Below are positions 7,834 to 24,280 of a DNA stretch of 64,000 nt, piece after piece (position 1 is the first letter of the stretch; each line of letters opens with the position of its first letter). The notes under the pieces are model-generated. The model was not told the DNA's origin. It saw nothing but the letters and a program-made list of their open reading frames with translations, and searched no databases. The position numbers and the translations under genes are program-made. Origin of the DNA: Microbulbifer thermotolerans (GTDB taxonomy: Bacteria; Pseudomonadota; Gammaproteobacteria; Pseudomonadales; Cellvibrionaceae); assembly GCF_900112305.1 (NCBI RefSeq), contig NZ_FOKT01000005.1, forward strand, positions 124,001-188,000, in the 5' to 3' direction.

Positions 7834-8310
7834 GTGGAGCAGTTTAAAACAATGGAAGATCTAAGGGATGCAATAAAAAGGCTTAGCAAATGGTTTGCTA
7901 GGCCGATTGTGGAGGGCGAGCATCCAACGTTACATCTTAATCCAAATAGTACAAACCGAGAAGTCGTAAATGGTATTCAAAGAGATGATTATATTTTTTC
8001 AGCTTGTGGGAACTGGATTATTCCTTCTGCTGAACATGGGCTGTCATTTTCTGCACACTGGCAACATTTAAAGGGTATTCACCGGATGAAGTCTAAACGA
8101 AATCCGGGTAAAAGAGTTCATGTGTATTGGGTATTGGAAAAGGCTGATATCCCTGATGGTTTGGAGTTCATCACAGATCCAAGAGATAGAAAGAAGCAGC
8201 ATTACTTTCTTGCAGTAACAAAGAAAATGACCGTTTCAGAACTGCGCTCAAAACTTGAGTGGATTGCTGATAGAATGTCAGTAATTAGAGATGCACAGGA
8301 TGCGTTATGA
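7834..8310 (+). CDS. Tse2-like ADP-ribosyltransferase-type toxin candidate
   Basis: A 158-residue soluble protein starting at GTG 7834 (AAGGAG 6-7 nt upstream). Its second half (GLSFS near residue 70, then KADIPDGLEFITDP, then QHYFLAVTKKMTVSELRSKL) follows the order seen in the Tse2 toxin family: a serine-containing strand, an IPxGLxxxxD strand, then an HYxxxPxxxM segment and C-terminal helix. Tse2 is a type VI effector with an ADP-ribosyltransferase-like fold; freestanding relatives also occur. The next gene overlaps by ATGA, the layout of a toxin-antitoxin or toxin-immunity pair. The match is by eye only. Confidence 0.5.
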   Translation: MEQFKTMEDLRDAIKRLSKWFARPIVEGEHPTLHLNPNSTNREVVNGIQRDDYIFSACGNWIIPSAEHGLSFSAHWQHLKGIHRMKSKRNPGKRVHVYWVLEKADIPDGLEFITDPRDRKKQHYFLAVTKKMTVSELRSKLEWIADRMSVIRDAQDAL

Positions 8311-9951: not shown

Positions 9952-10704
9952 ATGAACGTACTTAACACCTTAAGATTGCGAAAGGTAGCAGTACATCGAT
10001 GTTTTCTGTTCGCTGTTGCATTTTGGGTAGCAATCACGCCACTTACATCCAGCGCATATAAAGAGGAAAAAGCTATGGGTGAGATTAATGTGTATATTGT
10101 TCATGGATTTATGGCGTCTCCCTCTGATCACTGGTTTCAATGGTTAAAGGAGAAACTAGAAGAGCGTGGAATTTCAGTAAAAGTTCTGGAGCTGCCAGAT
10201 TCATCCGCACCTAACCCAATTGTCTGGCAGAAAGCGCTATATGAAAATATTGATAGGCTAAATCGAAACACATTCTTCGTAGCGCACAGTCTAGGTTGTG
10301 TATCATTATTAACATACTTGCAAGAAAATATAAATGATAAATCCATTGGAGGACTAATACTAGTCTCTGGTTTCGTGTCCCCACTACCGAAACTACCTCA
10401 GCTAAACGACTTTGTAGAATACCAGTTTGACTTTGAAAAAATCATTAGCGCAGTGAAACAACGAGCCGTTATAGGATCGCCTCAAGATTCGATCGTTCCA
10501 TATTATTTAACTAGAGAGGTAGCTAAAAATCTCGAATCAAATTTGTATTCAATTGATGACGCAGGGCATTTTTTAGCCGATGATGGATATGATACTTTCC
10601 CTTACTTGTTAGAGATTTTGTTGACTATGATTTCTAGGGAACCTCTGATTAATTCGCTTCCTGACGGTAAAAATTCTTTGGAGCTAGATGAGAAGCTCAG
10701 GTGA
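9952..10704 (+). CDS. RBBP9/YdeN-like alpha/beta hydrolase, C-terminus altered by a MITE
   Basis: A serine hydrolase of the RBBP9/YdeN type. A hydrophobic N-terminal segment (HRCFLFAVAFWVAITPLTSSA) suggests export; a Met at 10075 would give a cytosolic form. Family marks are VYIVHGFMASPSDHW (oxyanion side), the nucleophile elbow AHSLGC (about residues 112-117), the Asp region SPQDSIVP and the catalytic His in DAGHF. AGGAG precedes the ATG. The last 22 residues (REPLINSLPDGKNSLELDEKLR) are translated from the inserted repeat at 10638. Without it the frame would read MISYNFLRQK and stop. Probably induced through the MerR neighbour; substrate unknown. Confidence 0.8.
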   Translation: MNVLNTLRLRKVAVHRCFLFAVAFWVAITPLTSSAYKEEKAMGEINVYIVHGFMASPSDHWFQWLKEKLEERGISVKVLELPDSSAPNPIVWQKALYENIDRLNRNTFFVAHSLGCVSLLTYLQENINDKSIGGLILVSGFVSPLPKLPQLNDFVEYQFDFEKIISAVKQRAVIGSPQDSIVPYYLTREVAKNLESNLYSIDDAGHFLADDGYDTFPYLLEILLTMISREPLINSLPDGKNSLELDEKLR

Positions 10705-10852: not shown

Positions 10853-11057
10853 TACAATTTTTTACGCCAAAAATAAATGGCGCCAGAAACTCTTCACCTG
10901 TAGCAACGGATGCGTAAATGCGTCGGGACTGCTCTGTCAGGCCCATAGAGTAAAAAGGCGTATTGCCGGGAAAGCTGAGTGGCGCTGGTCTTTAATTAGT
11001 GGGCATAGCTGTTGGCTCAGGTTTCGCTAAATTCATTGCTTGCGTCGTTTTCCGGTA
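10853..11057. other. Intergenic region, no feature recognised
   Basis: About 205 bp between the MITE and the DUF748 gene. Only the residual hydrolase frame end (stop TAA near 10875) is recognisable; no terminator or clear promoter was seen. Confidence 0.5.
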
Positions 11058-14000
11058 ATGCCACTGAATAATTCTCCGCCTCTCGACATAACCCGGCGCC
11101 TGCTTTGGTGGCTGGTGGCGATATTGCTGTTGCTGGGTATTGCCAATTTGGCCGCCGGAACGCTGCTGGCGGCGCAGGTTGAGCGCTGGCTGAAAGAGCG
11201 CGGCCTGGATGCGGAAATCGGACATTTGCAGTTGTCTGTTGTGAATTTGCGGCTGGTGGTCAGTGATGTACGCGCAAAAAATGGCAGTGGTCGCGGTTTC
11301 CGCGCGCGGGAGTTGATGCTCGACTATAGCTGGTGGCAGTTATTGCGCGGTCGCATCCAGTTACAGCGGGCCTATCTGGACGGTGCCTATATGGATCTGG
11401 AATCCCGTTCGAGTGAAAGCGGCCGCCGCTGGGAAGTCGGCGGCTGGGCGCTGGGGCAGGGGCCGCGTCGAGACCGGGATTTCAGGTTGCTATTGGAGCA
11501 GGTGCGCATCCGCGACAGCACACTGTGCTACCGCCACCGTCCGGACTGGACCAGCCCCGGCTGTGTGGATTTCGGCGAACTACGGGTGCGGGATTTCCTG
11601 CTGGGATTGCAGCGGACAGGTGATGTGCCGCTGGATATTACCATCGGTGCGGACAAGCTCAATTTACGCAATTTGCTTATTACGGAAAAAGCGTCGGGGG
11701 CAGTTGATGCCACCTTAGTGGAATTGGCGCTGTCCGATGGATTATACCGCCGCCCCGGCAACCGCATCAGTGCCGATACCCTGAAGGCGCAGATGTTCGG
11801 CAGTTGTCCTCCCCAGCGTTGGGCCGATGCTTTACCGGCGCTGCAGCGGCTGGTAGGGCATTGCGGTGTTGCGCGGCGGTTGCAGTTAAAGGGGGATTTG
11901 CTGTTCAGTTTCGGCAAGAGCGGGGAGGTGCGCTGGCGCGCGGCCCTGGGGCAGGATATCGCGCTGCGCTACGCGAATCAGGTTTGGCACAATTGGCGTG
12001 CTCACAGGCTGGCGTTAAAAGAGTTTCACTACCGCCGCGCGCAGAAAACGCTGCGCTGGCAGAGCGCCGGCGCTTCTGATTTCGATTGGTGTCCGTCGGG
12101 CCTGCGCAATAAGCAGCATCACTACTGCAGCCGTGCCGGCACACTGACGCTGCCGGACCCGGTTACCTTTGACTGGCGTAAAAAAATCACGATCAGCACC
12201 GGGCCCAGCCGTTTGAAGCGGGTACAGCTGCTGGATTTGGCGCAGAGTAGGCGCAATCCGTTCAGCGCGAATCTGGCATTGCTGGGGGCTCTGGAGTATC
12301 GGGGTGAGACAGGTATTTTGTCCATCGACGGCGTGGATCTGGAAAGCGCCTCCGGCTGTATTCCGGGGCAGTTGTGGCACCAGCCGGATTACTGTGTGCG
12401 TCTGGCGGGGCTGAGCGGTAGCGAGCAATTCCAGGTGCAGTTCGGTTCGCGTATAGTGCAACGGCCCTGGGGGTTTGCCAGTGGTCCCCTGCGCCTGTCG
12501 CAGTTCAGCATGGCAACGGAAGGGCGGCCGCAGCTGCAGCTGCGCAAACTGCATTGGCAGCGCATTAACCTCCTCGGTGCCGGGGCGCCCTTTTTGTTAC
12601 AGGATTTTGCTTTGCAGTTCTTGTCCGGGTGTTTGCCCGATGGATTGCTGCCGGAAAAATTGCGCCCTCTTTGTGGGGAGCTGGCGAACTTCAATGGCCG
12701 CGGTCATTTCGCCTGGCAGCGGGGCGAGGCGGGCTACCTGATCGCGGGCGAGCTGAGCCTCGGGCGGCTGCGACTTGCTGATCAACTGAGCGGCGGTGGT
12801 CTGCTGTTACAGAAGCTGCACACGGGCGAGGGGATTTTGCGCCGCAGTGCAGACAGCGACCACCCCTGGGTACAGCGGGGCCTCAGCGGTTCGGTGGATA
12901 TCCCGATTACCGCAGGCCATCACGAAAATACGCCGGAGGCGATAGAGGATGATTCCGTTGATGAAAAGGGGTTGTTGCCGGAAGAACTGGCGCAGCGGCG
13001 CGAAGATGTGCAGACCGGGGACCGGGACGACGGTATGCCGCCACCGGATATCGCCAGTCCCAACCTAAAACTGGACAGCACTTCCCTGAGCCGCCTGCAG
13101 GGATGTCTGCCAAAAAGCTGGGCGCGCTTGTTATTCAGCAATCCGCAGCAAATGCCCGGTTGTTTCGATTTGCGCAACTGGCGTCAGCGGGGCCCGCTGG
13201 TCGTTGCCTGGCAGGGCGGTATCGATTTTTCCGCGGCGCAGCTTTCCCTGGAAAAAGTCCGAGCCTCGACACCCGCGGGAGCGGAGTTGCTGAATTTGTC
13301 CGGACTGCACTTGCCCGCCGCGCGGCTGCGCCACTTGCCGCCGCCCTATCGCAGTACTTTTGTTTCCCTGCCGGATTTTTCTCTGCAAGATTTCTATGGC
13401 TGCCTGCCGGTGGGTGTGAATGCGGCGGTGTTCGATATCCGCTGTGCGGAACTGCACAATCTGCACGCGGGCAAGCGCTTTGAATTGACTGTGGACCGGC
13501 GAAAAGTTTCTGCATATATGAGTGGCAGCCGGGCGCAGTGGATACTGCTGGCGGAAGAGGGCGAACACCCCATTTTCGAGCTGCAAAAACTGTCGGCGCC
13601 GCAACTGGAGGTAGAGTGGCAGCGCGGTGCCAACAGACCGGGAAAACTGGCGTTGAAAGATTTCTACGCGGCACAGCTGCACGCCTGTCTGCCGCAGGAA
13701 TGGCAACTGCGCAGTGATTTGCCGCGCTGTATTTCCACGGCGGAATTGCACACGATCGGAGAACGCGGCCTGGCCGTCGCTGAAACACTTTTTAAATCTT
13801 CCCCCATTGCAAAACCCCTGTGGCGTTTCCAATCCCTGCGCCTTGCCGAGCTATCTCTCAGCGCGGATACGCTGGATCTACTGAATTTGCAGCTTCAGGG
13901 TCTGCGCTTCTGTGGTCTTGCGGATTTACTGCCACAAACTGCGCGGCAGTTGGGCATTGCCGACTGCGCAAGTGCGCAACAAATCCACCTCCCGGGCACT

Positions 14001-16286
14001 AACCGTATCGGTTTGACACCACAGGCACCGCGGATCGCACTGGGACCGCTGGTATCGCAACCCATTACGCTGGGGGAAGGGAAAACGGAAAATACGGGCA
14101 CCGGCCTCAAACGGCTCAGCTGGAAACAGTTGCGCTGGGAAGGCGGACAGGTGCTCTGGACCACAGACCTGGAAGCTGTGGGGATGAGAGGCTGCGTTGC
14201 GGGCAGTGCTGCTGCGGTGGCGGAGGGGAGGGCAGATTTTTGCTGGCGTCTGCAGCAGCTGCGCCTGCCGGGTGGACAGAGGATATCCCTGTCCAGCCCC
14301 TTCTCTACGGATGGCTCCATTGAAGCTCTGGGGCTCAGCATCGACAGGGGCAGCGGTGATCCCTTGCAAATTGCGCGTATTCAATTGGACCAGCCCTCCT
14401 ACGGCGGCGCTTCCGTGGGCAAACTGTCCGGTGCCAGTGGTTGCCTGACGGCCGGCACTCTGGGCGATAACCGCCTGGCGCCCTGCTATCGATTGGGACG
14501 GGTAAGCATTCAGGGAATCGATAGGGTCGATACGTCGTCCGGCAAGGTCACTTTACTGCGCGGTGTTGCTATCGAAGGCGTGGAACTGAAGCAGGGGGAT
14601 TATCCCCAGGGGTTGCCGGCACAACTGTTGCAGCTGGAGCAGTTGCACACGGAGGAATTGCGTCTCGGCAGTGGTGAGATCGCTGTGCGTCAGCTGCGGT
14701 TGCAGGGCGTCGCCGGCTGCGTGCCGCCGGGTTATGTGGAAAGGCTAAACCACTGCCTGACACTCGATGCTGTTGATGTCAGCGGCAGCTATCGTTTCTC
14801 TACGCGACAATTGGCGCTGGCACAATTACAGCTGCACAAGGTACAGCTACTGACCGGAACGGGGCGCAGCCTGGTGCGCGGTGACAGCGTATCGGTGGAA
14901 CAGCTGTTGAGTGGAGAATCGGAGTTCCGTTTTCTGCGTGCCGAGGCGGAAGGGTTTGCCATTTTCGATCGGCGCGAGGGGGCACCGGAATACGAGCGCC
15001 ACTCTGTTATCGGCCGTCTGGCTGGCATGAGTGTTGCGCAATTGCATTACGACAGGCGCGGCAACCGCCTGGAAATCGAAAAAGTGGATGCACTGCGACC
15101 GCGCCTGATCGTTATGCGCGACCGCTCCGGCGAATACCCGCTGGCGCGGGATGTGGATGTGCTGACAGGCACACAGCCGCAGGAAAAACCCTTGATCCGC
15201 GCCGCAGACGCCATTACTGAAGGGATGAAAGTGCGCTATCACATCCGCGAGCTGGACGTGCGCCACGGTACCTTCACTTGGGTGGACCGCCAGGGCCAAT
15301 ATCGCGCGCGCTTGCCGATACGGGCAATTTATTTAACCCTGCGCAATGTCAGCAATTTGCCGCTTCACCCTCCGGCAACGGTATTGTTCAACGGCCGTCC
15401 CGGCGGTTTCGGTGAAATTCAACTGGCGGGCACCATCCGCTACCTCGAAACCAAAAAGTGGAACGCCGATCTGACCGGTTATATCGAAAATACCAACCTG
15501 ATCCCCGCGACGCCTTATATGGCCAAGTTGCTCGGCTACAAGATTCTGCAGGGGCAGCTGGACGCGCGCCTGGATATCCGTATACGGGAGAACAAGGTAA
15601 ACGCCTTTGCGGATATGAAATTGAATAAGATCAAGGTCCGCCGTGTGCAAGAGAAGGATAAGCTTCCGGTGAAGTCTTCCATTATCCCGCTGGATATTGC
15701 GCTGCTGTTGTTAAAAGACGGCCAGGGCAATGTGCGATTCGATATGCCGGTAAGCGGCGATCTCTATGATCCGAAATTTTCCTTCAGTTTTATCTTCAGT
15801 CATCTATTGCAGCGGGCAATTATTGAATCTTTGTTTGCTTATTTCACACCGGTTGGCTTCTATACTTTGGCGAAATTCGCTTGGGGGCGTTTCCGTGCGG
15901 TCAGATTCGAGCCGATTTTTTTCGAGCCCGGCAAGAGTGAGCTCGACGCCACAGCCTGGGAGCAGCTGCGGGAAATGGTTGTAAGACTGCGCGAGCGCCC
16001 GGACGCGCGCCCCGGCATCTGTGGCATTGCCAATGCCCGCGATTGGTATGCGCTTTATCCGGATTCCACGCCGGGGCTGGGCGGCAGCCGCAAAGCGCGG
16101 GAAAAGTTCTACCGGAATCCACCGCTGAAGTTATTTGAGGAGTTTGAACGTCTGGCGCAGGAGCGCAGCCGCAAGATAGAGCGCTTCCTGATAGACGAGG
16201 GAATAGGCGCCCAAGAGCTGATTCCCTGTGCGCCCGACTACAATGGACGTGATTTCGACGAACCGCGGGTGGAATTTTCGCGGTAG
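11058..16286 (+). CDS. Giant AsmA-like DUF748 envelope protein with 12 cysteine-pair repeats
   Basis: A 1,742-residue protein. An N-terminal membrane anchor (residues about 12-37, RLLWWLVAILLLLGIANLAAG) is followed by an AsmA/DUF748-type start (VERWLKERGLDAEIGHLQLSV...LRLVVSDVRA) and a DUF748-like C-terminus (KVNAFADMKLNKIKVRRV, PLDIALLLLKDGQGNVRFDMPVSGDLYDPKF, FEPGKSELD). The long middle (about residues 156-1235) is a chain of beta-rich repeats of about 92 residues, each with GC-[LVI]-P and a second cysteine 13-20 residues on. The body is probably periplasmic and may span the envelope; AsmA-like proteins are implicated in lipid transport. The ATG at 11058 replaces a weaker TTG at 11040. Confidence 0.8.
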   Translation: MPLNNSPPLDITRRLLWWLVAILLLLGIANLAAGTLLAAQVERWLKERGLDAEIGHLQLSVVNLRLVVSDVRAKNGSGRGFRARELMLDYSWWQLLRGRIQLQRAYLDGAYMDLESRSSESGRRWEVGGWALGQGPRRDRDFRLLLEQVRIRDSTLCYRHRPDWTSPGCVDFGELRVRDFLLGLQRTGDVPLDITIGADKLNLRNLLITEKASGAVDATLVELALSDGLYRRPGNRISADTLKAQMFGSCPPQRWADALPALQRLVGHCGVARRLQLKGDLLFSFGKSGEVRWRAALGQDIALRYANQVWHNWRAHRLALKEFHYRRAQKTLRWQSAGASDFDWCPSGLRNKQHHYCSRAGTLTLPDPVTFDWRKKITISTGPSRLKRVQLLDLAQSRRNPFSANLALLGALEYRGETGILSIDGVDLESASGCIPGQLWHQPDYCVRLAGLSGSEQFQVQFGSRIVQRPWGFASGPLRLSQFSMATEGRPQLQLRKLHWQRINLLGAGAPFLLQDFALQFLSGCLPDGLLPEKLRPLCGELANFNGRGHFAWQRGEAGYLIAGELSLGRLRLADQLSGGGLLLQKLHTGEGILRRSADSDHPWVQRGLSGSVDIPITAGHHENTPEAIEDDSVDEKGLLPEELAQRREDVQTGDRDDGMPPPDIASPNLKLDSTSLSRLQGCLPKSWARLLFSNPQQMPGCFDLRNWRQRGPLVVAWQGGIDFSAAQLSLEKVRASTPAGAELLNLSGLHLPAARLRHLPPPYRSTFVSLPDFSLQDFYGCLPVGVNAAVFDIRCAELHNLHAGKRFELTVDRRKVSAYMSGSRAQWILLAEEGEHPIFELQKLSAPQLEVEWQRGANRPGKLALKDFYAAQLHACLPQEWQLRSDLPRCISTAELHTIGERGLAVAETLFKSSPIAKPLWRFQSLRLAELSLSADTLDLLNLQLQGLRFCGLADLLPQTARQLGIADCASAQQIHLPGTNRIGLTPQAPRIALGPLVSQPITLGEGKTENTGTGLKRLSWKQLRWEGGQVLWTTDLEAVGMRGCVAGSAAAVAEGRADFCWRLQQLRLPGGQRISLSSPFSTDGSIEALGLSIDRGSGDPLQIARIQLDQPSYGGASVGKLSGASGCLTAGTLGDNRLAPCYRLGRVSIQGIDRVDTSSGKVTLLRGVAIEGVELKQGDYPQGLPAQLLQLEQLHTEELRLGSGEIAVRQLRLQGVAGCVPPGYVERLNHCLTLDAVDVSGSYRFSTRQLALAQLQLHKVQLLTGTGRSLVRGDSVSVEQLLSGESEFRFLRAEAEGFAIFDRREGAPEYERHSVIGRLAGMSVAQLHYDRRGNRLEIEKVDALRPRLIVMRDRSGEYPLARDVDVLTGTQPQEKPLIRAADAITEGMKVRYHIRELDVRHGTFTWVDRQGQYRARLPIRAIYLTLRNVSNLPLHPPATVLFNGRPGGFGEIQLAGTIRYLETKKWNADLTGYIENTNLIPATPYMAKLLGYKILQGQLDARLDIRIRENKVNAFADMKLNKIKVRRVQEKDKLPVKSSIIPLDIALLLLKDGQGNVRFDMPVSGDLYDPKFSFSFIFSHLLQRAIIESLFAYFTPVGFYTLAKFAWGRFRAVRFEPIFFEPGKSELDATAWEQLREMVVRLRERPDARPGICGIANARDWYALYPDSTPGLGGSRKAREKFYRNPPLKLFEEFERLAQERSRKIERFLIDEGIGAQELIPCAPDYNGRDFDEPRVEFSR

Positions 16287-20574: not shown

Positions 20575-21171
20575 TTAGTAGATATTGGATATATCTTCGT
20601 CGAAAATCAAACCGTCCAAATCGAATTCTTCACAGGTTTGCTTGAATTCATCCGTGCAAAACACTCCCCCAAAAGATTTTTCGCCCGAGCGGAACAGGAA
20701 CTTTCCCTGTAGATCGCTCTCACTGAAGACAAGCTTTTCAATTCCATCAGGGAAGGTTCGATCTTCACCGGAATATTGGTAAACGGTTTTTTTCTCGTCT
20801 ACTTCGACATAGGTAAATAGGTTGAATATAAAGTAGTTGGTTTCCTGAACCTGTACGGGTAGAAACTCTCCATGCGGCTCAAGTATAAGGCTTAGCGCGG
20901 CCTTGGCTTTCTCGGAAAGTACTAATGCTGATCCTATCCATATGGAAATATTCGGGATCTTTACTGCAGAGGGGTACATGGGAGAGGCTTCGAAGTCGGA
21001 TTTGACCCGTTTCCACGGGTGTGGAAATGGCTTGCCGCTAGTGCCCAGATCCGAACAATCAGACAAGCCGGATTCCGAATCTTCCAGGTGGAGCTGTTCA
21101 TAAAGTTGGACGCAGTCTAAGGAAAGCTCTTTGAACGACTTTTCATCATTCTTTAATCTGTAGAGATTCAT
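20575..21171 (-). CDS. Imm11-type (DUF1629-like) immunity protein
   Basis: A 198-residue soluble acidic protein with the layout of Imm11/DUF1629 immunity proteins: an N-terminal strand-helix part (MNLYRLKNDEKSFKELSLDC), a central block on a bound-state value (PNISIWIGSALVLSEKAKAAL, EPHGEFLPVQVQETNYFIFNLFTYVEV) and the C-terminal end (KLVFSESDLQGKFLFRSG, FCTDEFKQTCEEFDLDGLIFDED). It starts at ATG 21171, overlapping the toxin stop (TAATG). It probably neutralises the AHH nuclease encoded just upstream. Family call is by pattern. Confidence 0.7.
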   Translation of the reverse strand: MNLYRLKNDEKSFKELSLDCVQLYEQLHLEDSESGLSDCSDLGTSGKPFPHPWKRVKSDFEASPMYPSAVKIPNISIWIGSALVLSEKAKAALSLILEPHGEFLPVQVQETNYFIFNLFTYVEVDEKKTVYQYSGEDRTFPDGIEKLVFSESDLQGKFLFRSGEKSFGGVFCTDEFKQTCEEFDLDGLIFDEDISNIY

Positions 21172-21896
21172 TATTTGCCGCTCCACAATGGATCTTTTGG
21201 GCTTTCGATTTTTACCGGATAGGTGCCGCTTTTAATTTTCATTTTGACGTCTCTCAATTTGGCGACGAAGGTTGGCCCGGGAGGGATTGGAAGAAATTGG
21301 ACTGAAATCCAGTGCTCATAGTTTACGCCGTGTATGGATTTATGTGTTGGGGCTTCGGGTGTGGCCCAGTGATTTTTGTGTGTTTTCAAGTTTGGTATCC
21401 ATACGCCATTTCTCGGATCGTTTATGCGGATGCCGGACAGATGCAGTTTGATGCGAGCCGCTAGCAGGTTTTTCTGCTTCCAGCGCCCTTTCCCCGGTAT
21501 AAGGTGGTGGGCTACATGCTGTAGGCTGGGTTTTGGTTCTCCTTCTGCAAGCAGGTGACGGGCAAGCACCTTGGTTGGGTGATGCTTTTCCTTACGCATG
21601 CGCTCAAGTCTTTGGGAGGATGTCAGGGCGTTGAATTCCATCCGGTATTTAACCAACCCATCTTCAATAGACGCGAGCGTATTGATTCGTCTGCGCTCCT
21701 GCTCCAGATGCTCTCGTGCCTCACGCCACTCTCGTAGGCGTTTATCCCGTTCTTGCGGGGATTCATTGCTTAAGGAGGGGGAGTATTGGGCCGCGTGATA
21801 GGCATCACACTTCTTTTCAAATTCGTAGATGGCCATTTCCAGGGCTGTTGCGGCTTTGGGTGGGGCATTGGGAGCCGGAGGCTGTTCAAGCCACAT
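21171..21896 (-). CDS. AHH-domain nuclease toxin (orphan effector)
   Basis: A 241-residue protein. Residues about 20-110 are charged and helical (EKKCDAYHA, EWREAREHLEQERRR). Residues about 124-200 form an AHH nuclease domain of the HNH/EndoVII fold: VAHHLIPGKG (A129 H130 H131), LHLSGIRINDPRNGVWIP, then THKSIHGVNYEHWI. The start is ATG 21896 with AAGGAG 7 nt upstream; an earlier Met at 21947 lacks a site. There is no PAAR, VgrG, Rhs or signal peptide, so delivery is unclear. The stop overlaps the immunity ATG. Confidence 0.75.
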   Translation of the reverse strand: MWLEQPPAPNAPPKAATALEMAIYEFEKKCDAYHAAQYSPSLSNESPQERDKRLREWREAREHLEQERRRINTLASIEDGLVKYRMEFNALTSSQRLERMRKEKHHPTKVLARHLLAEGEPKPSLQHVAHHLIPGKGRWKQKNLLAARIKLHLSGIRINDPRNGVWIPNLKTHKNHWATPEAPTHKSIHGVNYEHWISVQFLPIPPGPTFVAKLRDVKMKIKSGTYPVKIESPKDPLWSGK

Positions 21897-22030
21897 ATAG
21901 CACACTCCTTGCGCAGTGGATTCTTTGCGATTATGGCTAGCGGTCATGGTAGTAGCAAGATGTTGGACTTTGAACCCGGGCTACCTGTCGGCCATAATCC
22001 GCTCCTTCCGCACAAGATAACGAGAGTTGT

Positions 22031-24280
22031 ATGACCGATACCTCCGTTTATGAGGCCAGCGAGCGGCAGTCGCTCGCGGAGTACACTGAGAAGGCGTACC
22101 TGGACTACTCCATGTACGTGATCCTGGACCGCGCCCTGCCCAATATCGGCGACGGCCTGAAGCCCGTGCAGCGGCGTATCGTCTACGCCATGAGCGAGCT
22201 GGGGCTCAAGAACACCGCCAAGTACAAGAAGTCTGCCCGCACCGTGGGCGACGTGATCGGTAAGTATCACCCGCACGGCGACAGCGCCGTGTACGAGGCC
22301 ATGGTGCTGATGGCGCAGCCCTTCAGCTACCGCTATCCCCTGATCGACGGTCAGGGCAACTGGGGTTCACCGGACGATCCAAAATCTTTCGCCGCCATGC
22401 GTTACACCGAGTCGCGCATGGGCAAATACTCGGAAGTGCTCTTGTCGGAACTGGGCCAGGGCACCGTAGACTGGCAGCCGAACTTCGACGGCACTCTGGA
22501 TGAGCCGGCGGTGTTGCCCGCGCGGGTGCCCAACATATTGCTGAACGGCACTACCGGCATCGCCGTGGGTATGGCCACCGATATACCGCCGCACAATCTG
22601 CGTGAAGTGGTCAATGCGACGGTGGCGCTGCTGGAAAACCCCAAGGCCACGGTGGCGGAGCTATGTGAGCATATTCTGGGCCCGGATATGCCCACCGAGG
22701 CGGAGATCATCACGCCGCGCGCAGAGATACAGAAGATGTACCAGACCGGCCGCGGCTCGATCAAAATGCGCGCTATCTGGGCTAAGGAAGATGGCGAAAT
22801 TGTCATCAGTGCGCTGCCTTATCAGGCCAGTGGCGCCAAGGTATTGGAGCAGATAGCGCAGCAGATGCAGGCTAAGAAGCTGCCGATGATTACAGATCTG
22901 CGCGATGAATCGGACCACGAGAATCCCACCCGCCTGGTGATAGTGCCGAAATCCAACCGCGTGGACCTGGAAGCGGTGATGAACCACCTGTTCGCCACCA
23001 CTGACCTGGAGAAGAGTTACCGGGTCAACCTAAATATGATCGGCATCGACGGCCGCCCACAGGTGAAGTCTCTCGATAAGATCCTGGGGGAATGGCTCAG
23101 CTTCCGCACTGTAACCACCCGCCGCCGCCTGCAGTTCCGCCTCGACAAGGTGGAAAAACGGCTGCACTTGCTGGCCGGTTTGCTGATCGCTTTCCTCAAT
23201 ATTGATGAAGTGATCGAAATTATCCGTACCCACGACGAGCCCAAGCGCGAGCTGATGGAGCGCTTCGAGCTGACTGACGTGCAGGCGGAATATATCCTCG
23301 ATACCAAACTGCGGCAGTTGGCGCGGCTTGAAGAGATGAAGATCCGCGGTGAGCAGGCGGAGCTGGAGAAAGAGCGCGATATGCTCACCAAAACCCTGGA
23401 CAGCCCGCGGCGCCTGAAAACCCTGATCAAGAAAGAACTGCTGGCGGCGGCGGAAGAATTTGGGGACGAGCGCCGCTCGCCGATTGTGGAGCGCGCCGAA
23501 GCCAAGGCCTTCAGCGAAGCGGAACTGCTTTCCAGTGATCCGATCACCGTGGTGTTGTCGGAGAAGGGTTGGATTCGGGCGGCCAAGGGACACGATATAG
23601 ATCCGGCCGCCCTCAGTTACAAAGCCGGCGACCGCTTCAAGCTGGCCGCCCGCGGCAAGAGTAACCAGCCGGCGTTGTTGCTGGACAGTACCGGGCGCAG
23701 CTATGCGATCGCCTCCCATACTCTGCCGTCCGCGCGCGGCCAGGGAGAGCCCCTGTCCGGCCGCATCAACCCGCCTTCCGGTGCTGTCTTTGAGGGGCTC
23801 TTGATGGGTGCCGATGAACAGCGGGTTCTGCTGGCCAGCGATGCCGGCTATGGCTTTATTGCCAAGCTGGCGGATCTGCAATCGCGCAATAAGGCGGGCA
23901 AGGCGATGCTGACACTGCCGAAGGGCGCGCGGGTGTTGCCGCCCTGTGTGGTGGAAAACCCCGGCGAAGCGTTGCTGGCGGCGGTGACCAGCGAAGGGCG
24001 CATGCTGGTGTTCCCTGTCTCCGAATTGCCGGAACTGGCGAAAGGCAAGGGCAATAAGATTATTAATATCCCCGCCGCCCGCGCCGCCAGCCGCGAGGAG
24101 TTTGTGGTGGGTATCGCCGTGCTGGAGGGGGATGTCCAGCTGGTGATTCACGCTGGTAAACGCCATACCAAGATCAAAATCTCCGAACTGGAGCACTACC
24201 TTGGAGAGCGCGGTCGCCGCGGCAATAAACTGCCGCGGGGCTTCCAGAAGGTGGACCGGATCGAGGTGTTGAAAAAATAA
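22031..24280 (+). CDS. parC: DNA topoisomerase IV subunit A
   Basis: A 749-residue type IIA topoisomerase subunit that cuts and rejoins DNA during chromosome decatenation. The catalytic tyrosine lies in [10 protein letters not shown] (Y125), and the quinolone region is [12 protein letters not shown] with Ser85 and Glu89, the sensitive-type residues. The C-terminal beta-pinwheel is shorter than GyrA's and lacks a GyrA box, which supports ParC. No parE is adjacent: a toxin-immunity pair lies upstream and an Imm11 remnant downstream. Confidence 0.95.

Follow-up and report, generated by a model that had tools for sequence, protein, structure and literature searches.

Twelve invariant cysteine pairs in a giant DUF748 protein of Microbulbifer point to a probable lipid-bridge groove lengthened by duplication of a disulfide-stapled unit

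What determines the length of bridge-like lipid transfer proteins, and what holds a long β-groove in register, is unsettled for bacteria and eukaryotes alike. Both questions are raised by a gene for an AsmA-like DUF748 protein of 1748 residues in a 64,000-nucleotide stretch of the marine bacterium Microbulbifer thermotolerans (RefSeq assembly GCF_900112305.1, contig NZ_FOKT01000005.1, positions 124,001 to 188,000), which we call the window and in whose numbering all coordinates are given. The gene occupies 11040-16286 on the plus strand, the strand of all features of the protein described here, with a TTG start as listed and an alternative in-frame ATG six codons further on at 11058. The protein, hereafter the giant, carries a regular series of close cysteine pairs, and our proposal is that it is probably a lipid-bridge groove that was lengthened by duplicating a four-strand unit stapled by a disulfide.

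The giant has 26 cysteines, 24 of which form twelve core pairs of the form C-x(11-18)-C. These are pair 1 (C163/C175, 11526-11564), pair 2 (C256/C275, 11805-11864), pair 3 (C351/C363, 12090-12128), pair 4 (C440/C452, 12357-12395), pair 5 (C531/C545, 12630-12674), pair 6 (C689/C708, 13104-13163), pair 7 (C788/C802, 13401-13445), pair 8 (C883/C897, 13686-13730), pair 9 (C958/C976, 13911-13967), pair 10 (C1052/C1068, 14193-14243), pair 11 (C1135/C1149, 14442-14486) and pair 12 (C1227/C1239, 14718-14756). The codons of the first cysteine of each pair (C1; the second is C2) run from 11526 to 14718 and lie within a few bases of the places where an initial annotation, made from the letters of the window, had put twelve pairs; the three motifs that it quoted are found at residues 439-452, 787-802 and 1226-1239. 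The spacing is as regular as it had described, 75-99 residues from C1 to C1 in ten of the eleven intervals (mean 90.6), and the longer gap with an acidic linker is an interval of 158 residues. The linker itself comprises residues 606-664 (12855-13031), which are mostly of low confidence in the AlphaFold model. While the cysteine-pair observation is confirmed, its frame is wider than first drawn. The interval 11500-14760 covers the cysteine-pair part and not the whole gene, and the remaining two cysteines, C1661 and C1730 (16020-16229), which make up a C-terminal pair 13 conserved in orthologs, went unmentioned. The assignment to DUF748 holds by a Pfam match above the cut-off (PF05359, E 1.3e-45, 156.4 bits against a cut-off of 50), of which the best stretch, residues 1328-1665 (15021-16034), lies outside the cysteine-pair region and spans only positions 602-920 of the 1037 in the family model.

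Other profiles add little to this assignment. The giant scores 18.5 bits with the YhdP family (PF13116), under the cut-off of 46, has no listed match to the TamB family (PF04357) at E values up to 1, and is placed in no family by an NCBIfam search. Heme motifs of the CxxCH type were ruled out, as the closest cysteines are 12 apart. A hydrophobic N-terminal stretch, residues 21-45 (11100-11174), is likely an inner-membrane anchor, judged from the sequence alone.

The cysteines were compared in a set of 47 distinct Microbulbifer proteins, the window's included, drawn from 47 of 48 genomes, in which the frame is uninterrupted and identity to the window's protein is 34-64%. Close relatives are also encoded in eight named Microbulbifer records; over the compared part, seven of these proteins are identical to ones from genomes of the window's genus. 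All 26 cysteine columns are invariant, whereas residues of other types are invariant at 14 of 36 tryptophans, 23 of 161 glycines and 17 of 95 prolines. Not a single loss is counted at the 26 positions, down to 34% identity, so the pairs are not a product of chance. Between the cysteines, length is free to change. The loop differs in length among orthologs in seven of the twelve core pairs (for example, 11-34 residues in pair 3, 18-50 in pair 6, 5-15 in pair 7 and 7-23 in pair 10) and is constant in pairs 1, 2, 4, 11 and 12. Kept cysteines around a loop of changing length are the signature of a covalent pair and not of a conserved surface. An automatic pair counter with a limit of 30 residues returns eleven pairs, not twelve, for four orthologs in which pair 3 or pair 6 is over-long (L047, L049, L050 and L051); by alignment column all 26 cysteines are present in each. 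Absence of the pattern from close orthologs, raised at the outset as grounds for doubt, is thus not what we find. In the 48th genome (G125; L053) the giant is split into frames of 1188 and 557 residues, which together carry all 26 cysteines; the split is either a real disruption or an assembly error.

The pairs are set in a recurring sequence context, computed from 41 proteins times twelve units. Ahead of C1, positions −11, −8, −6 and −3 are hydrophobic in 82, 68, 75 and 74% of cases, respectively, and after C2 positions +1, +3, +6 and +8 are so in 74, 66, 99 and 55%, with glycine at +10 in 49%. Between these flanks there is often GCLP, then a variable loop, then C2, giving the consensus ...L..L.L..L.GCLP...C..L..L.L.G... 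for the unit. No further invariant residue type occurs at the three loop positions next to each cysteine. In HHalign comparisons among units 4-12, the probability is at least 60% in 28 of 34, and with the cysteines masked it is still at least 60% in 13 of 34 (units 4 and 12, 92.8; 5 and 10, 94.6; 9 and 12, 92.6). Control windows from the cysteine-free C-terminal part stay under 10% in 105 of 108 comparisons, the others being 18.2, 19.7 and an overlapping 87.7; the last (control c1 against unit 12) and the unit comparisons 8-9 and 10-11 were set aside for their overlapping windows. By these profiles, most units are likely duplicates of one another.

Both AlphaFold2 models of the giant consist chiefly of predicted strands. 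The first, residues 56-1255, was built with 41 aligned sequences (mean predicted local distance difference test 82.7, predicted template modelling score (pTM) 0.60) and the second, residues 1070-1748, with 42 sequences (82.8 and 0.73, respectively). By DSSP assignment of the 56-1255 model, each of the twelve pairs flanks one loop that has no internal strand, and in eleven of the twelve C1 is at most two residues from a strand end and C2 at most two from the start of the next strand. Pair 1 is the sole miss, its first strand extending four residues beyond C163. When pairs of these lengths were placed at random, 20000 trials gave 0.5 on average and never more than 4, versus the 11 observed, and 2 of 1200 rotations of the real pair set, the unrotated one included, reach 11. 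About four strands separate successive pairs, and only three seem to separate pairs 8 and 9, as read by eye from the DSSP string; at such a distance the hairpin tips would share one rim. In the model, the acidic linker falls between the third and fourth strand of one unit. The early reading of the pairs as disulfide-closed loops between periplasmic β-strands is therefore supported, since both the modelled strand ends and the invariance among orthologs fit it.

In accordance with a groove-like fold, the top Foldseek match of both models is LPD-3, a bridge-like lipid transfer protein of eukaryotes (9cap_A; E 2.5e-7 and 3.3e-7, probability 1.00), and an N-terminal fragment of Vps13 is the second match of the C-terminal model. 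On re-alignment by VIA, LPD-3 obtains Z scores of 9.6 (N-terminal model) and 8.9. A profile search with the cysteine region found no match to solved structures at E values up to 1, and four matches of the C-terminal domain in a sequence search (E 0.58-1.3) were taken as chance. Residues 1619-1748 (15894-16283) are predicted to form an OmpA/Pal-like domain, which encloses pair 13 and matches structure 9uu2 with a Z score of 13.4 and a root-mean-square deviation of 1.8 over 102 aligned residues; its Pfam OmpA score (PF00691) is below threshold, 19.0 against 27.2 bits. In OmpA/Pal domains a conserved aspartate and arginine hold peptidoglycan. In an alignment of the OmpA-like tail, 90% or more of 15 rows share an arginine, and the aspartate position looks replaced, as judged by eye.

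Relatives of the giant form a ladder of core-pair number: 0, 1, 2, 11 and 12. Canonical DUF748 proteins, with neither a core pair nor a tail cysteine and with frames of 781-1190 residues, make up 35 of 44 rows, or 32 of 41 distinct proteins (G037, G044 and G055 occur twice). A second DUF748 branch has an OmpA-like tail with its own cysteine pair, the equivalent of pair 13, whether or not core pairs are present. Among 52 proteins of this branch examined outside Microbulbifer, 39 lack core pairs, nine carry a single one (G067, G095, G096, G112, G134, G161, G162, G163 and G376), two carry two (G109 and G516), one is doubtful (G107), and one, of 1657 residues and from another genus (G064), has eleven. 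The Microbulbifer giants stand at twelve. The apparent core pair of G107 (residues 84/92) was left uncounted because it belongs to an N-terminal extension of the frame that is rich in cysteine, as was G578, whose frame ends at the contig end.

Alignment places these forms in relation to one another. In an alignment of 22 sequences, pair 1 of the giant, likely the ancestral one, lines up with the only pair of the one-pair forms, and sequences lacking it align through this place with other residues. The two units of G109 are a gap-free tandem duplication; they are 34% identical along 105 residues, at an E value of 4.9e-25 for a comparison of just two sequences. BLAST finds no similarity between those of G516, so that its second pair need not be a recent duplicate. 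In a MAFFT alignment the eleven-pair protein (L039) is gapped at two of the twelve pairs, and one of its own pairs faces no pair of the window's protein. Among 390 sampled genomes of the order, the matches listed include no giants beyond Microbulbifer and the genus of G064, and the longest related frame outside these, among the matches listed, has 1275 residues; in 369 genomes of the class searched with profile A1, two besides the giant's own genome match, over the N-terminal stretch only.

The gene neighbourhood connects the short and long forms. The topoisomerase IV subunit A gene, parC, starts less than about 0.5 kb downstream on the same strand in all six short relatives compared (L040-L045, with one or two core pairs). 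In the window parC is at 22031, downstream of the giant gene after an aconitase gene and others, and at the named Microbulbifer loci it lies downstream on the same strand within about 8 kb in five of eight and not in the other three. No parC was seen less than about 4.5 kb from the eleven-pair gene of G064, nor near the gene of G516, which is on a short contig. The short and the twelve-pair forms thus most likely occupy a common locus, at which the gene grew in place.

These observations suggest the following mechanism. The giant would be an inner-membrane-anchored, periplasmic AsmA-like (DUF748) bridge with an OmpA/Pal-like end, along whose long β-sheet groove phospholipids would be carried towards the outer membrane. 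The middle of the groove would consist of twelve units of about 90 residues, each of roughly four antiparallel strands, with one hairpin per unit closed by a disulfide across its loop; the staples would hold the hairpin tips in register as sequence and loop lengths drift. Because the partners adjoin in sequence, bond formation should require no enzyme beyond DsbA, and the giant's own genome encodes one DsbB and two frames with a DSBA domain. The one-pair form would have been lengthened at its own locus by duplication of the unit. With a β-strand spacing of 4.8 Å, the approximately 43 extra strands of the giant relative to the one-pair form, counted by eye from the model, would add some 20 nm of contour, as an estimate only. 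For scale, an AlphaFold model of TamB is 17.8 nm long, in the accessible text of PMC11014939. That the cargo may be phospholipid is suggested by analogy with EpaF (PA4735), a DUF748 protein of Pseudomonas aeruginosa. According to the accessible text of PMC10900882, EpaF has a redundant, essential role alongside YhdP, TamB and YdbH in growth and outer-membrane integrity, and its overexpression sustains both when the other three are missing. From all this we infer disulfide formation, passage of lipids along the groove and a giant that spans the periplasm.

Several results weigh against this proposal. The pTM of the long model is only 0.60, and LPD-3 is matched with low template modelling scores (0.12-0.22). 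At E values under 1e-3 Foldseek picks up chains of teneurin, Rhs, ApoB and LptD too, and when the N-terminal model is re-aligned by VIA, an ApoB fragment (Z 12.4) scores above LPD-3 (9.6), with several outer-membrane receptors at 8-9.6. In the repeat, units 1-3 reach at most 26.3% in every cysteine-masked HHalign comparison and show no convincing similarity to the others, so that their duplication cannot be read from sequence by itself. A simple test of strand alternation also came out unfavourably: over 45 predicted strands of at least eight residues the odd-even hydrophobicity difference is 1.12, versus 1.50 when shuffled, and 1986 of 2000 shuffles reach the observed value. Plain amphipathic alternation of strands was accordingly dropped as proof of a lipid groove, the test having gone the opposite way. 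The repeat region (11526-14756) instead has a hydrophobic rhythm at lag 5 (+0.11), a 3+2 recurrence, and only +0.02 at lag 2, a lag at which YhdP, TamB and YdbH of the same genome give +0.09 to +0.17 and two canonical DUF748 proteins +0.08 and +0.11; either regular strand bulges or a differently built wall would explain it. Lastly, the genome encodes YhdP, TamB and YdbH as well, and hence the function may be redundant. The groove reading rests on family, Foldseek matches and architecture jointly and on no single score.

Some of these points would suit a different role for real disulfides, in which the giant is a structural tether or scaffold from the inner membrane to the cell wall or outer membrane and what matters is length and stiffness. 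The OmpA/Pal-like tail is in keeping with such a role, as is a hydrophobic rhythm unlike that of TamB, YhdP and YdbH, and we know of no lipid data for the OmpA-tailed branch. We nevertheless regard a tether as unlikely: LPD-3 heads the Foldseek matches of both models, the tail seems to lack the full peptidoglycan-binding motif (as judged by eye), and overexpressed EpaF supports growth without YhdP, TamB and YdbH, in the accessible text of PMC10900882. It is more improbable still that the giant is an AsmA-like protein of the usual sort, whose cysteine loops have no particular role and are a neutral habit of the lineage. Relatives evidently do without them, since 35 of the 44 DUF748 rows (32 of 41 distinct) have neither core pair nor tail cysteine and 39 OmpA-tailed proteins have the tail pair and no core pair; yet a neutral habit sits poorly with the lack of any loss at the 26 positions among 47 proteins, some only 34% identical, and with eleven pairs kept in another genus that has the long form.

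Strict invariance of every cysteine would fit ligands equally well, and the pairs might then bind metal ions or clusters and form no disulfides at all. Each site would, however, offer just two cysteines across a loop of anything from 5 to 50 residues, with no other invariant residue type beside them in the loops and with the next site about four strands away (by eye from the model), in a periplasmic protein whose genome encodes DsbB and DSBA-domain proteins; metal binding is thus very improbable. Disulfide staples on a lipid-bridge groove remain the reading we favor. A stronger form of that reading is possible and is put forward more tentatively. The giant may represent a distinct, disulfide-locked bridge architecture, in which four-strand modules are each stapled at one hairpin and duplicated in place, and in which staples, not sequence, would hold the fast-diverging walls. 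The five-residue rhythm would then reflect a wall chemistry other than that of TamB and YhdP, and the one-pair starting form would probably have been too short to cross the periplasm, a distance that the giant would be able to cover.

The AsmA-like bridge is already known, and the stapled, duplicated unit is the new part. With EpaF and other members of DUF748 (PF05359) the giant has in common a family match above the cut-off, a hydrophobic N-terminus and a predicted β-groove, and it differs in length (1748 residues versus 1,088 for EpaF, in the accessible text of PMC10900882), in its twelve core pairs and in an OmpA-like tail with its own pair, where canonical members have neither core pairs nor tail cysteine. 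The short OmpA-tailed relatives are nearer, sharing the N-terminus, the C-terminal cysteine pair and the neighbouring gene, and some of them pair 1, but they have 0, 1 or 2 core pairs against the giant's twelve. According to the accessible text of PMC7613979, bridge-like lipid transfer proteins (VPS13, ATG2, LPD-3; the repeating β-groove superfamily) have a long groove made of repeated strand modules in variable number, as proposed here for the giant; their modules are mostly of five strands, whereas those of the giant, by eye from the model, seem to have about four and a cysteine-closed hairpin.

YhdP, TamB and YdbH, which are AsmA-like like the giant and thought to bridge the periplasm, have a stronger lag-2 rhythm. 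In the giant's own genome, all cysteines of YhdP and TamB fall among the first 40 residues of their open frames, and staples are therefore not a habit of all AsmA-like proteins there. We note that the four cysteines of the YdbH of this genome (L132) are closely paired as 498/506 and 577/586 in its open frame, with about 80 residues from one pair to the next.

A literature search on AsmA-like, DUF748 and bridge-like lipid transfer proteins, to which most subscription journals were out of reach, yielded, in the text accessible, no description of native cysteine-pair repeats in such a protein, in agreement with the initial annotation, which knew of no such pattern in AsmA-like proteins. The words disulfide and cysteine are absent from the main text of the repeating β-groove paper (PMC7613979), and cysteine from that of the EpaF paper (PMC10900882). 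What the giant offers to the question of bridge length is that the steps of lengthening survive in living relatives, with 0, 1, 2, 11 and 12 units, the 0-2 and 12 forms most likely at one locus. It also has a chemical handle built in, as the putative staples could be oxidised or reduced, or the units counted, against transport. One protein would need up to thirteen DsbA-made bonds, a prediction that would link oxidative folding to the lipid supply of the envelope.

The genes around the giant include a few further observations. The next sizeable frame upstream, at 9952-10704 on the plus strand, encodes a serine hydrolase (PF06821) with a hydrophobic N-terminal stretch, and a small protein encoded at 7834-8310, also on the plus strand, weakly resembles the Tse2 ADP-ribosyltransferase family, at a score below threshold. 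On the minus strand, in the interval from the aconitase gene to parC, genes for an Imm11-type immunity protein (20575-21186) and an AHH nuclease (21171-21947) are likely a toxin/immunity pair.

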